A stretch of DNA of 64,000 nt from Natrinema amylolyticum. GTDB taxonomy: Archaea > Halobacteriota > Halobacteria > Halobacteriales > Natrialbaceae. Shown here piece by piece: positions 23,952 through 28,021 of this stretch; the first letter of the stretch is position 1; the number at the start of each line of letters is the position of its first letter. The notes under the pieces were generated by a model. The model made no database searches, had not been told where the DNA came from, and saw nothing but the letters and a program-made list of their open reading frames with translations. The position numbers were made by a program, and so were the translations under genes. The DNA is taken from the NCBI RefSeq assembly GCF_020515625.1, contig NZ_JAIWPJ010000001.1:1674001-1738000 (forward strand), read 5' to 3'.

Positions 23952-24043
23952 TCGAGCGACTCCCGTCGCAGACGCTTTTTCGGTCCAAGTCGACGGATCG
24001 CTGACTGATCGCTCCCTCGGAGACGGGGACAGACCGCCAGAGA

Positions 24044-24064
24044 CACACCACTGTTGCAAGTGAA
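24044..24064 (-). repeat. ORB-like box (reverse)
   Basis: On the minus strand: TTCACTTGCA then ACAGTGGTGTG. One of the two outward limits of the upstream origin half. Confidence 0.85.
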
Positions 24065-24076
24065 GCGGGATCGTAC

Positions 24077-24091
24077 GGGGTGGGGGAGGGG
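24077..24091 (+). repeat. G-string next to the reverse ORB
   Basis: GGGGTGGGGGAGGGG, with only two non-G bases, lies 13 bases inside the reverse ORB. Haloarchaeal ORBs are known to carry an inward G-string that helps Orc1 binding. Confidence 0.6.
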
Positions 24092-24183
24092 CCGATCGCC
24101 GTGTCGCAGCGGGGTGTACGTCAGTATTGTACTCACAGGGTCGTTCGCTCCTGGATTAGACACTATCCCGGCTCGATCTCGTG

Positions 24184-24219
24184 CCACTACATGTCACGCC
24201 CGGACCACTATATGTCACG
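24184..24219 (+). repeat. Two 15-base direct repeats, 21 bases apart
   Basis: CCACTACATGTCACG (24184-24198) and CCACTATATGTCACG (24205-24219) differ at one base. The 21-base period is two DNA turns, so both copies face the same side of the helix. They lie inside the likely unwinding region. Confidence 0.7.
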
Positions 24220-24221
24220 GC

Positions 24222-24242
24222 TTTAGCTGAAATAGTGGACTG
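24222..24242 (+). repeat. Degenerate ORB-like box (forward)
   Basis: TTTAGCTGAAATAGTGGACTG matches the forward ORB at 24272 at about 15 of 21 positions, keeping the TGAAA and AGTGG cores. It may be a weak initiator site. Confidence 0.4.
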
Positions 24243-24271
24243 TTCTCGTTCGGTCTCCTCCTAGACTAGTC

Positions 24272-24292
24272 TTCACGTGAAACAGTGGTGTG
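24272..24292 (+). repeat. ORB-like box (forward), upstream of orc1
   Basis: TTCACGTGAA then ACAGTGGTGTG. It is opposed to the box at 24044, and a half-box TTCACTTGAA follows at 24299-24308. Both lie within 85 bases of the orc1 start, so Orc1 binding could also control its own gene. Confidence 0.85.
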
Positions 24293-24324
24293 TGTGAGTT
24301 CACTTGAATCAGATGAAAAGGTGG

Positions 24325-24333
24325 TTTTAAATA
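24325..24333 (+). promoter_or_regulatory. TATA box of orc1/cdc6
   Basis: TTTTAAATA lies 23-31 bases before the ATG at 24356. It is one of the clearest leaderless promoters in the window, 16 bases after an ORB half-box. Confidence 0.75.
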
Positions 24334-24355
24334 TTGTATCTCTCTTGGTACGGAC

Positions 24356-25582
24356 ATGCCTCGGTTCGAGCGGAAGCAGAACATCTTCCAGAACAAGGAC
24401 GCTCTCGGGGAATCGTATCAACCCGAACGGATCGAAGAACGTGACGAAGAGATCGAGGCCTACATGGACGCGCTTCAGCCCATCATCGACGGCTGGGAGC
24501 CGAACAACATCTTTCTCTACGGGAACACGGGCGTCGGAAAGACCGCTGTCACCGAGTACCTCCTCGACGTGCTCCAGGACGACGTCACCGAGTACGACGA
24601 CGTCGACCTCTCGGTGCTCGGTGTCAACTGCAAGACGCTCAACTCGTCGTATCAGGTCGCGATCGAACTGGTCAACACGCTCCGCCCCGCCGGTGCCGAG
24701 ATCAGCACGACCGGCTACCCCCAACAGACCGTCTTCAAGAAGCTCTACGGCGAGCTCGAGGCGCTGGGCGGCACGGTCGTCATCGTCCTCGACGAAATCG
24801 ATTCCATCGGTGACCGCGACGAGTTACTGTACGAACTCCCGCGCGCCCGCTCGAACGGCTATCTCGAGGCGACGAAGGTCGGCCTTATCGGCATCAGTAA
24901 CGACTTCAAGTTCCGCGAACAGCTCGATCCGCGCGTCCAGGACACGCTCTGTGAGCGCGAACTGCAGTTTCCTCCCTACGAGGCGTCCGAACTCACCAAC
25001 ATCCTCGAGTCTCGAGCCGAGGTCGCGATCGCCGAGGACGGCTGCGACGGCGGCGTCCTGAACCTCTGTGCGGCACTCGCCGCGCGCGACAGCGGGAGCG
25101 CCCGACAGGCGCTGGACCTCCTCCGATTGGCCGGCGAAGTCGCGGAGAACAACGACGACGACGCGATTCGGGAGGGGCACGTCGAACGGGCGCGGTCGAA
25201 ACTCGAGCAAGAGCGCGTCGAGGAGGGGATGCGGGAGCTGACGACCCACGGACGCCTCGCCCTCCTGGCGGTCGTCTCGAAGGCCGCCAAGGAGTCGACG
25301 CCCTGCCGGACCCGAGAGCTCTATCAGGAGTACGAGGCGCTCTGTGAGTCCTCGGGCACCGACTCGCTCGCCCAGCGATCGGTCCACAACCACCTCTCCG
25401 ATCTCCGGATGCTCGGCATCCTCTCGGCGAAGGAGAACCGAAGCGGCTCCCGCGGGAACTACTACAGCTACGAACTCGACGTCCCCTTCTCGAGCGCCGT
25501 CGACGCGATGGCCGACGTGCTCTACCTCGACGAGGAGATCGAGACGATCCGCGATATCGCACGGATGAACAGCGTCGCCTGA
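24356..25582 (+). CDS. orc1: Orc1/Cdc6 replication initiator
   Basis: A 408-residue AAA+ initiator that binds ORB sequences and opens the origin. The N-terminus FERKQNIFQNKDALGESYQPERIEERDEEIEAY is typical. Walker A GNTGVGKT is at 56-63 and Walker B VLDEID at about 144-149. Sensor-type ISNDFKFREQLDPRV follows, then the lid region and a C-terminal winged helix (about 300-400) with QRSVHNHLSDLRMLGIL for DNA binding. All ATPase motifs are intact. The gene is bracketed by ORB-like boxes. The neighbours are not those of the main haloarchaeal oriC1 (no DNA polymerase D gene), so this is probably a secondary origin initiator. Confidence 0.95.
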   Translation: MPRFERKQNIFQNKDALGESYQPERIEERDEEIEAYMDALQPIIDGWEPNNIFLYGNTGVGKTAVTEYLLDVLQDDVTEYDDVDLSVLGVNCKTLNSSYQVAIELVNTLRPAGAEISTTGYPQQTVFKKLYGELEALGGTVVIVLDEIDSIGDRDELLYELPRARSNGYLEATKVGLIGISNDFKFREQLDPRVQDTLCERELQFPPYEASELTNILESRAEVAIAEDGCDGGVLNLCAALAARDSGSARQALDLLRLAGEVAENNDDDAIREGHVERARSKLEQERVEEGMRELTTHGRLALLAVVSKAAKESTPCRTRELYQEYEALCESSGTDSLAQRSVHNHLSDLRMLGILSAKENRSGSRGNYYSYELDVPFSSAVDAMADVLYLDEEIETIRDIARMNSVA

Positions 25583-25644
25583 GGCGACCTATCGTCCGAT
25601 ATAGACGTCCATCAGCGTCGGTATCGGCTCCGTCTCGTCCACCC

Positions 25645-25665
25645 CACACCACCGTTTCAAGTGAA
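25645..25665 (-). repeat. ORB-like box (reverse)
   Basis: On the minus strand: TTCACTTGAA then ACGGTGGTGTG. It is one of the two best matches to the local consensus. Confidence 0.88.
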
Positions 25666-25714
25666 CCTCGAGCGACACGACGCCGATCGCGGGGCCGCGA
25701 CGCTGACCGCCCAC

Positions 25715-25735
25715 TTCACTTGTATCGGTGGTGTG
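25715..25735 (+). repeat. ORB-like box (forward)
   Basis: TTCACTTGTA then TCGGTGGTGTG. The first of five forward boxes after orc1. Confidence 0.85.
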
Positions 25736-25800
25736 TCACGGCGTCGCATCTCCGGACGGACGAGTCCGCTCGAGCCACGATCTCGTGGTCGACGATCCAT

Positions 25801-25821
25801 TTCACGCGAAGCGGTGGTGTC
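25801..25821 (+). repeat. ORB-like box (forward)
   Basis: TTCACGCGAA then GCGGTGGTGTC. It keeps both half-sites, with changes in the middle. Confidence 0.8.
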
Positions 25822-25878
25822 CCGGGCGGCCGTTCGCCACCTTCCGCTCGGGGTCCCGGACCGGGACGATTTCGTCCG

Positions 25879-25899
25879 TTCACATGTACCGGTGGTGTC
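25879..25899 (+). repeat. ORB-like box (forward)
   Basis: TTCACATGTA then CCGGTGGTGTC. Confidence 0.8.
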
Positions 25900-25942
25900 T
25901 CTGGGTTACGGCTCGAGCGACTCCGCCGACGGGACCCACGTG

Positions 25943-25963
25943 TTCAGATGTAACCGTGGTGTG
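25943..25963 (+). repeat. ORB-like box (forward)
   Basis: TTCAGATGTA then ACCGTGGTGTG. The 5' half is the most altered of the set. Confidence 0.75.
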
Positions 25964-25975
25964 TCTCCGTCCCGA

Positions 25976-25996
25976 TTCACTTGAACCGGTGGTGTG
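25976..25996 (+). repeat. ORB-like box (forward)
   Basis: TTCACTTGAA then CCGGTGGTGTG. Only 12 bases separate it from the previous box, so two initiators could bind side by side on about the same face. Confidence 0.88.
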
Positions 25997-26090
25997 TCGG
26001 CGGTCGAACCGACCGCGGGAGAGACCGTACCGACTCCGATTATCTCGGCGACCGGATCACCTTGGGAGGACGAGTGCCGGGCCGTCGGCG

Positions 26091-26581: not shown

Positions 26582-28021
26582 ATGGGAGGGGATAAACGCA
26601 ATATCGCGGTTCGGTTTTTCGGCGGTGCTGGGAACTATACGGACGTTCTCGAGCGACTCTGCACGTACATCATCACCGAAAACCCGACCGAAGCGGCGGT
26701 TTTCGAGTGGATCAAATCGAACACGCGAGCGACGAGCGACGACAGTATCCGCGACCGGCTCGCCTTTCTCGAGGGGATCGGGCTGCTCGAACTCGATTCG
26801 GACCGCGTTCGGCTCACCCGGCAGGGGATGGCGTGGCTCTCGGAGACGGATCCGAGGACCCTCTACGACCTGCTCTCGAGCAACGTCCGGGGGTTCGATA
26901 CGCTACTCGAGGCGCTGCTCGACGGACCGAAGACCGACGCCGAACTGGGCGACTCAATCGGAGCCGCTCATCCCGAGTTCGACTGGAACGACGCCTCCGG
27001 ACCCGCCCAACACAGGGGGTGGTTGCAGAGTCTCGGCTACGTTGTACGATCCGACGGTGTGAACTCGCTGACCGACAGCGGCCGAGAACTGGCGCGGCGA
27101 CGGTCGTCCGACCATCCGACCCTCGAGCGGGGCGCATTCTACGCCCAGACCGACCTTGAGGACGCGTTCGACACCAGTTTCGGCTCGTACATCAAGGGCA
27201 TCAGTCCGCGAACGGACGACGGGGAGCTGGCGTACGTCATCGTGAAGGCTCGCGAGGACGGCCCCTACGGCGACGAGATCGACGGCGAGCGGTTCACTTA
27301 CATCGGAGAAGGGGTCCCGGAGAAGGGCGACCAGCAGTTAACTGGGGCAAACAATGCGCTCCTCGAGCAGGCCGACCGATCGACCGTCCCGGTGTACTTC
27401 TTCTACCAGCCGGCGGACAGCGACGAGCTCCGGTACGAAGGGCTGGTCGACGTCGTCGACGCCGAGTACGTCTCGCGGGACGGGCGGATGGTCTACGAGT
27501 TCACGATGGAACGGCTCGCGCTCGAGCCGGCCGAGTTCGAGGCGCTCTCGGAGTCGGTCTCCGAAGGCGTCGAGGGGGGCGAAGACGACGAACCGGCCCT
27601 GACCGACGACGAAGAGGAGTTCACCGCGGTCCAGCGACGGGTTCGCTCGAGCGCGTTCCCGAAGGAAGTCACGGCCGCCTACGACGGCCGGTGTGCGATC
27701 TGTGGGAAATCGCGCGAATCGCCGAACGGGACGATCGACATCGAGGCGGCCCACATCTATCCGAAGCGAGAAAACGGCCGCGACAACGTCCGGAACGGGC
27801 TCGCCCTCTGTCGGCTCCACCACTGGGCGTTCGATACCGGCTGGCTCACGGTCGCCGACGACTACCGGATTCTGGTCGCCGACCGGCCCGATCTCGAGGG
27901 CTACGAGGAGTTCGCGGCGCTCGAGGGGGACTCGCTGACGTTGCCAGCGGACGAGGACCGACATCCCCACGCCAAATTCCTCGCTGCACACCGGGAACGA
28001 CACGGGTTCGAGTCGCCGTAA
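26582..28021 (+). CDS. Winged-helix / SRA-like / HNH endonuclease, candidate type IV restriction enzyme
   Basis: A 479-residue protein. Residues 20-85 and 95-175 look like two winged-helix modules (LCTYIITENPTEAAVFEWIKSN, RLAFLEGIGLLELDSDRVRLT). Residues 200-325 resemble an SRA/YDG fold, which flips out modified cytosine: SYIKGISPRTDDGELAYVIV, ERFTYIGEGVPEKGDQQLTG, ANNALLEQ, VPVYFFYQ, LRYEGLVDVVDAEYV. Residues 365-430 are an HNH_2 nuclease: zinc Cys371 and Cys374 in CAICGKS, IEAAHIYPK, then NGLALCRLHHWAFDTGWL. SRA plus HNH is the build of modification-dependent (type IV) restriction enzymes such as ScoMcrA. A linker rich in Glu and Asp precedes HNH. The SRA call rests on pattern only. Confidence 0.8.
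   Translation: MGGDKRNIAVRFFGGAGNYTDVLERLCTYIITENPTEAAVFEWIKSNTRATSDDSIRDRLAFLEGIGLLELDSDRVRLTRQGMAWLSETDPRTLYDLLSSNVRGFDTLLEALLDGPKTDAELGDSIGAAHPEFDWNDASGPAQHRGWLQSLGYVVRSDGVNSLTDSGRELARRRSSDHPTLERGAFYAQTDLEDAFDTSFGSYIKGISPRTDDGELAYVIVKAREDGPYGDEIDGERFTYIGEGVPEKGDQQLTGANNALLEQADRSTVPVYFFYQPADSDELRYEGLVDVVDAEYVSRDGRMVYEFTMERLALEPAEFEALSESVSEGVEGGEDDEPALTDDEEEFTAVQRRVRSSAFPKEVTAAYDGRCAICGKSRESPNGTIDIEAAHIYPKRENGRDNVRNGLALCRLHHWAFDTGWLTVADDYRILVADRPDLEGYEEFAALEGDSLTLPADEDRHPHAKFLAAHRERHGFESP

Follow-up and report, generated by a model that had tools for sequence, protein, structure and literature searches.

Does an orc1/cdc6 gene flanked on both sides by ORB-type boxes mark a replication origin and, if so, how might initiation and its restraint be divided between the two flanks? 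The gene in question lies in a 64-kb stretch of the Natrinema amylolyticum genome (contig C1:1674001-1738000 of a 4.71-Mb assembly of 11 contigs), which we analyzed as a whole and refer to as the window. As proposed by a previous reading made from the sequence alone (the sequence-only reading), the gene is intact; its product scores 460 bits against TIGR02928 and possesses the AAA, Cdc6 lid and Cdc6_C domains, the last of which is a winged-helix domain. A phage source for this Orc1 was considered and rejected, as its phage matches are remote (25-27% identity). Eight 21-nt ORB-type boxes surround the gene in the register TTCAC...GTGGTGTG, two upstream and six downstream, and share the form TTCACnTGnAnCnGTGGTGTG. 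The features of the locus are listed below; ORBs 1 to 8 were located by pattern scan and weight matrix.

24044..24064, minus strand: ORB 1, upstream; the published J7 primer PARS-4-fwd sits here
24151..24350, no strand: AT-richest 200 bp near orc1 (46% GC), presumed unwinding region and orc1 promoter
24272..24292, plus strand: ORB 2, upstream, 84 bp before the orc1 ATG, a placement retained in most relatives
24299..24329, plus strand: composite or stretched ORB TTCACTTGAATCAGATGAAAAGGTGGTTTTA merging into the orc1 TATA box (pattern comparison over loci)
24325..24333, plus strand: putative TATA-like element of orc1, TTTTAAATA (from the sequence)
24356..25582, plus strand: orc1/cdc6 initiator gene, 408 aa
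25583..26090, no strand: downstream intergenic region (64.8% GC), presumed initiator-titrating and oriC2D-like by analogy with PMC3936714
25645..25665, minus strand: ORB 3, downstream
25715..25735, plus strand: ORB 4, downstream
25801..25821, plus strand: ORB 5, downstream, with two mismatches
25879..25899, plus strand: ORB 6, downstream
25943..25963, plus strand: ORB 7, downstream
25976..25996, plus strand: ORB 8, downstream

Pattern scan and weight matrix reproduce both the number of boxes given by the sequence-only reading and its order, in which each side begins with a reverse box and continues with forward boxes (24044 reverse and 24272 forward; 25645 reverse and the rest forward), and an inverted ORB pair with a G-rich end is present in the intergenic region adjoining orc1. 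The eight boxes score 29-40 bits compared with 8.6 bits for the next best site in the 64 kb, a gap that is partly a product of construction, as the weight matrix was made from the boxes themselves. A scan of the entire 4.7-Mb genome for TTCACNTGNANCNGTGGTGTG, allowing up to three mismatches and using the reversed pattern as control, returned eight matches at zero to two mismatches, all of them at this locus, while at three mismatches six sites were found elsewhere, compared with four for the control. Because the closer matches all fall here and the three-mismatch matches stay near control level, we consider the boxes to be real and locus-specific, and the genome-wide search that had been set as a test of the earlier reading found no spread of boxes over the genome. 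Other orc1 genes of the genome with detectable boxes carry different box sequences, in line with the initiator-origin specificity demonstrated in Haloarcula hispanica (PMC3936714).

Across Natrinema, the boxes are conserved while the DNA between them diverges. In eight Natrinema-group relatives (Natrinema species and Haloterrigena sp. H1), upstream box columns are 95% identical to the window, compared with 48% for the other upstream intergenic columns, and downstream box columns are 81% identical, compared with 42% (Mann-Whitney p of ~6e-14 upstream and ~9e-30 downstream, for columns that are not fully independent). Of 36 relatives, picked solely for protein similarity and located on chromosomes as well as plasmids from many genera of haloarchaea, 35 carry boxes on either side of orc1. 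For the upstream pair, the usual positions are near -290 (reverse) and -84 to -89 (forward), and box matches beyond the two flanks are few (nine in the 36 loci). The plasmid pHTUR04 of Haloterrigena turkmenica (L062) carries five additional strong boxes of the same family beyond the usual flanks. The sequence-only reading had regarded a double-sided set as unusual, a view contradicted by these relatives, by at least two further double-sided orc1 loci in the same genome, including one on contig C3 near 577 kb (L007; three boxes upstream and seven downstream, with a motif like GATTTCACTCGACACCTGGG), and by a survey from 2012, in which about ten haloarchaeal orc/cdc6 genes are listed as having boxes on both flanks (PMC3528665).

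The window Orc1 falls in a fully supported 35-row clade comprised of chromosomal Natrinema copies and plasmid copies, the latter from Haloarcula marismortui pNG500, H. turkmenica pHTUR04, Halalkalicoccus jeotgali plasmid 2, Haloplanus and Halorientalis. The pterin dehydratase and SRA-HNH neighbors are retained at the orc1 locus in several Natrinema, and window-type neighbor genes were not found beside the orc1 of those of the 36 relatives that belong to other genera. This distribution fits an orc1-box unit that may move as a cassette between plasmids and chromosomes. The SRA and HNH domain protein (PF02182, PF13391), encoded at window positions 26582-28021 adjoining the origin, is probably a modification-dependent restriction enzyme, and its gene stays beside the orc1 locus in several Natrinema. 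A haloarchaeal orc1 of the window family was also encountered on a contig labeled as a Mollicutes bacterium (L040), which is most likely a mis-binned metagenome contig.

That the locus is a replication origin, as the sequence-only reading proposed, is supported by published work on Natrinema sp. J7. The J7 fragment ARS-4 (2,211,560-2,213,764) spans a predicted oriC7, a cdc6 gene and a predicted oriC8, and the plasmid that carries it, pFJ4, gave 2.1 x 10^3 cfu/ug in transformation and is stable at about one copy per chromosome, with the caveat that it may partly have integrated (PMC5350488). The ARS-4 forward primer, which consists of the first box and its flank, matches N. gari and N. altunense with zero mismatches and the window with one, at 24040; the best site for the reverse primer has three mismatches in N. 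gari, and in the window it has two and lies within the pterin dehydratase gene. By its J7 coordinates, ARS-4 has 344 bp ahead of the ATG and extends 634 bp beyond the stop of a gene of 1227 bp. N. gari, with an Orc1 98% identical to the window protein, has a gene of the same length (1227 bp), the forward-primer site beginning at -343 relative to the ATG and the best reverse-primer site ending 635 bp past the stop. Judged by primers and by coordinates that fit N. gari to ~1 bp, ARS-4 is the ortholog of the window locus and, as pFJ4 replicates, an entire orthologous double-sided fragment replicates. ARS-4 and the window locus have the first box and the downstream gene in common and agree in the lengths of the gene and of the intergenic regions, but ARS-4 comes from another strain, and its boxes were counted as 2 + 2 with Ori-Finder, with the sides not dissected (PMC5350488). 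ARS-1, the second efficient cdc6-bearing J7 fragment (PMC5350488), is by the J7 primers the ortholog of L007. The forward primer of ARS-2 maps with one mismatch to oriC1 on contig C3 near 188 kb, and the ARS-2 plasmid pFJ2 gave zero transformants even though oriC1 is a conserved archaeal origin (PMC5350488).

A search of the genome gave a single gene for the PolD small subunit (PF04042); located at 184 kb on contig C3, it adjoins a different orc1 at 188 kb (L009/L012), which by this linkage is the conserved polD-linked oriC1. The neighborhood of polD and replication genes that characterizes oriC1 is not seen at the window locus. Therefore, given that the polD-linked orc1 sits on contig C3, the window locus is a secondary origin, in agreement with what had been suggested from the window alone. 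oriC1 shares the ORB-orc1 arrangement with the window locus, but its box reads about TCCACTCGAAACGAAGGGGT. The only 16S gene found is on contig C4, so that rRNA-operon linkage of the H. hispanica kind was not shown, and neither GC nor AT skew has an origin-like inflection in the 400 kb around the locus, which makes skew uninformative here.

The upstream flank contains the AT-rich DNA of the kind that haloarchaeal origins unwind: only 0.19% of the 200-bp stretches in the window have a lower GC content than 24151-24350, and the DNA strictly between ORB 1 and ORB 2 is mildly AT-rich (58% GC). Downstream, six ORBs are packed into 352 bp directly 3' of orc1, a dense cluster as in oriC2-cdc6E-oriC2D of H. 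hispanica, and no AT-rich stretch is found, the lowest 200-bp stretch there having 61% GC. Because AT-rich DNA is present upstream and absent downstream, we place initiation on the upstream side and regard the downstream cluster as a sink.

The earlier tally was right about the eight ORBs but overlooked the composite box at 24299-24329. This element, whose pattern TTCACTTGAAtCAGATGnnnnGGTGGTTTTA occurs once in the 64-kb window with both strands scanned, may represent an ORB lengthened by nine bases or, alternatively, a pair of boxes that overlap. Of 37 loci, 28 have it, always 31 bases long, and it starts exactly at -57 in 24 of the 37, at -56 or -60 in three, and in a displaced position in L049, where the match begins within the gene; the loci with the exact -57 placement span relatives of several genera. 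We found no mention of a TATA-fused composite box in the literature examined on haloarchaeal origins. Judging from the fixed placement of this box on the core promoter, Orc1 probably represses its own gene.

We consider it likely that the upstream boxes and AT-rich region form the origin proper of a secondary chromosomal origin, while the GC-rich downstream cluster titrates Orc1. From the sequence features we infer that the window Orc1 would bind its own, genome-unique box family directly. At the inverted ORB 1/ORB 2 pair around the AT-rich stretch, bound Orc1 would open the DNA and load MCM, and the six-box downstream cluster would bind and withhold Orc1 and so hold down initiation, the role that oriC2D plays for oriC2. 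At the composite box on the TATA element, Orc1 would probably lower its own expression. The precedent for titration is H. hispanica oriC2D, a 722-bp region downstream of cdc6E with 11 ORBs that alone has no origin (ARS) activity, can be deleted only when oriC2 is gone, and decreases the copy number of oriC2 plasmids, with two of its boxes having an intermediate effect; it was published as a negative regulator working by Cdc6 titration (PMC3936714). By this analogy, the downstream GC-rich cluster of the window is probably an Orc1-titrating brake and not itself an origin. Several observations weigh against this overall reading of the locus: Cdc6E, the functional analogue, shares only about 40% identity with the window Orc1 and belongs to a different clade, the downstream six include a reverse-forward pair where the H. 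hispanica cluster is all forward, GC skew over 400 kb lacks an origin-like inflection, and replication of pFJ4 may partly reflect integration in J7.

The reverse-forward pair could instead indicate that the downstream cluster has origin function of its own, so that one origin would lie on either side of orc1. Ori-Finder 2 predicts oriC7 and oriC8 on opposite sides of the J7 gene (PMC5350488), and the downstream side, too, opens with an inverted pair, its first box being reverse in 27 of the 35 relatives that have downstream boxes. We nevertheless judge this arrangement improbable, as the downstream region is GC-rich throughout, its inverted boxes ORB 3 and ORB 4 are separated by only about 50 bp, and H. 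hispanica oriC2D has no ARS activity (PMC3936714). Restraint might also be exerted not by titration but by Orc1-mediated pairing of the two clusters, through looping or handcuffing as in plasmid iterons. The orc1-box family does occur on many plasmids, the double-sided spacing spans a gene whose length is constant between the two box clusters across relatives, and H. hispanica oriC2 has plasmid-like incompatibility; the graded effect of box number in H. hispanica is, however, accounted for by titration (PMC3936714), and pairing seems to us an unlikely explanation.

A dormant or relic origin, retained in sequence without firing in normal growth, would agree with the silent GC skew, and dormant origins are documented in haloarchaea (PMC4595724; PMC3528665). 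Against dormancy, the boxes and promoter are under strong selective conservation and the orthologous J7 fragment replicates (PMC5350488), and we give this reading a small share of the probability, if somewhat more than pairing. The window locus is an ordinary, well-conserved secondary origin, for which both a functional precedent and a tested ortholog are known. We also put forward, tentatively and at less than even chances, that the family as a whole is a mobile replicon cassette working in a closed loop, in which one initiator would act on its own genome-unique boxes through an upstream origin, a downstream titration array and a composite box locked to the TATA element that would make initiator synthesis self-limiting. 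If true, such a cassette would correspond, in Archaea, to dnaA autoregulation plus datA, conserved across chromosomes and plasmids of many genera. The conserved promoter-fused box makes initiator autoregulation in haloarchaea directly testable, and Natrinema is a genus in which an orthologous fragment already serves as a vector.

Among known replicons, pNG500, pHTUR04, H. jeotgali plasmid 2 and Haloplanus pJCM16430-01 carry an Orc1 of the same clade (80-84% identity to that of the window) and the same box sequence on both sides of the gene, but are extrachromosomal and have unrelated neighbor genes. The orc1 locus of a Haloarcula genome in our set (G013) has three boxes upstream and exactly 11 downstream, as published for oriC2D, and with this match is very probably H. 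hispanica oriC2-cdc6E-oriC2D; it also has a box at -57. Like the window locus, oriC2-cdc6E-oriC2D is a secondary chromosomal origin with reverse and forward boxes upstream, a further box near -57 and a dense downstream cluster. Unlike the window, its box is one base shorter in the middle and its cluster is comprised of 11 all-forward boxes rather than six with a leading reverse box. The G013 Orc1 is about 40% identical to the window Orc1 and lies in a separate clade; with membership of the Cdc6E family set at a minimum of about 80% identity (criterion of Wu 2012), we rejected the window Orc1 as a Cdc6E ortholog. Given the shared layout and the distant initiator, the window locus is oriC2/oriC2D-like by anatomy and stands outside the Cdc6E family. 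A double-sided plan, studied in detail in a single H. hispanica origin only, is what this widespread family of initiators normally has, on chromosomes as on plasmids.
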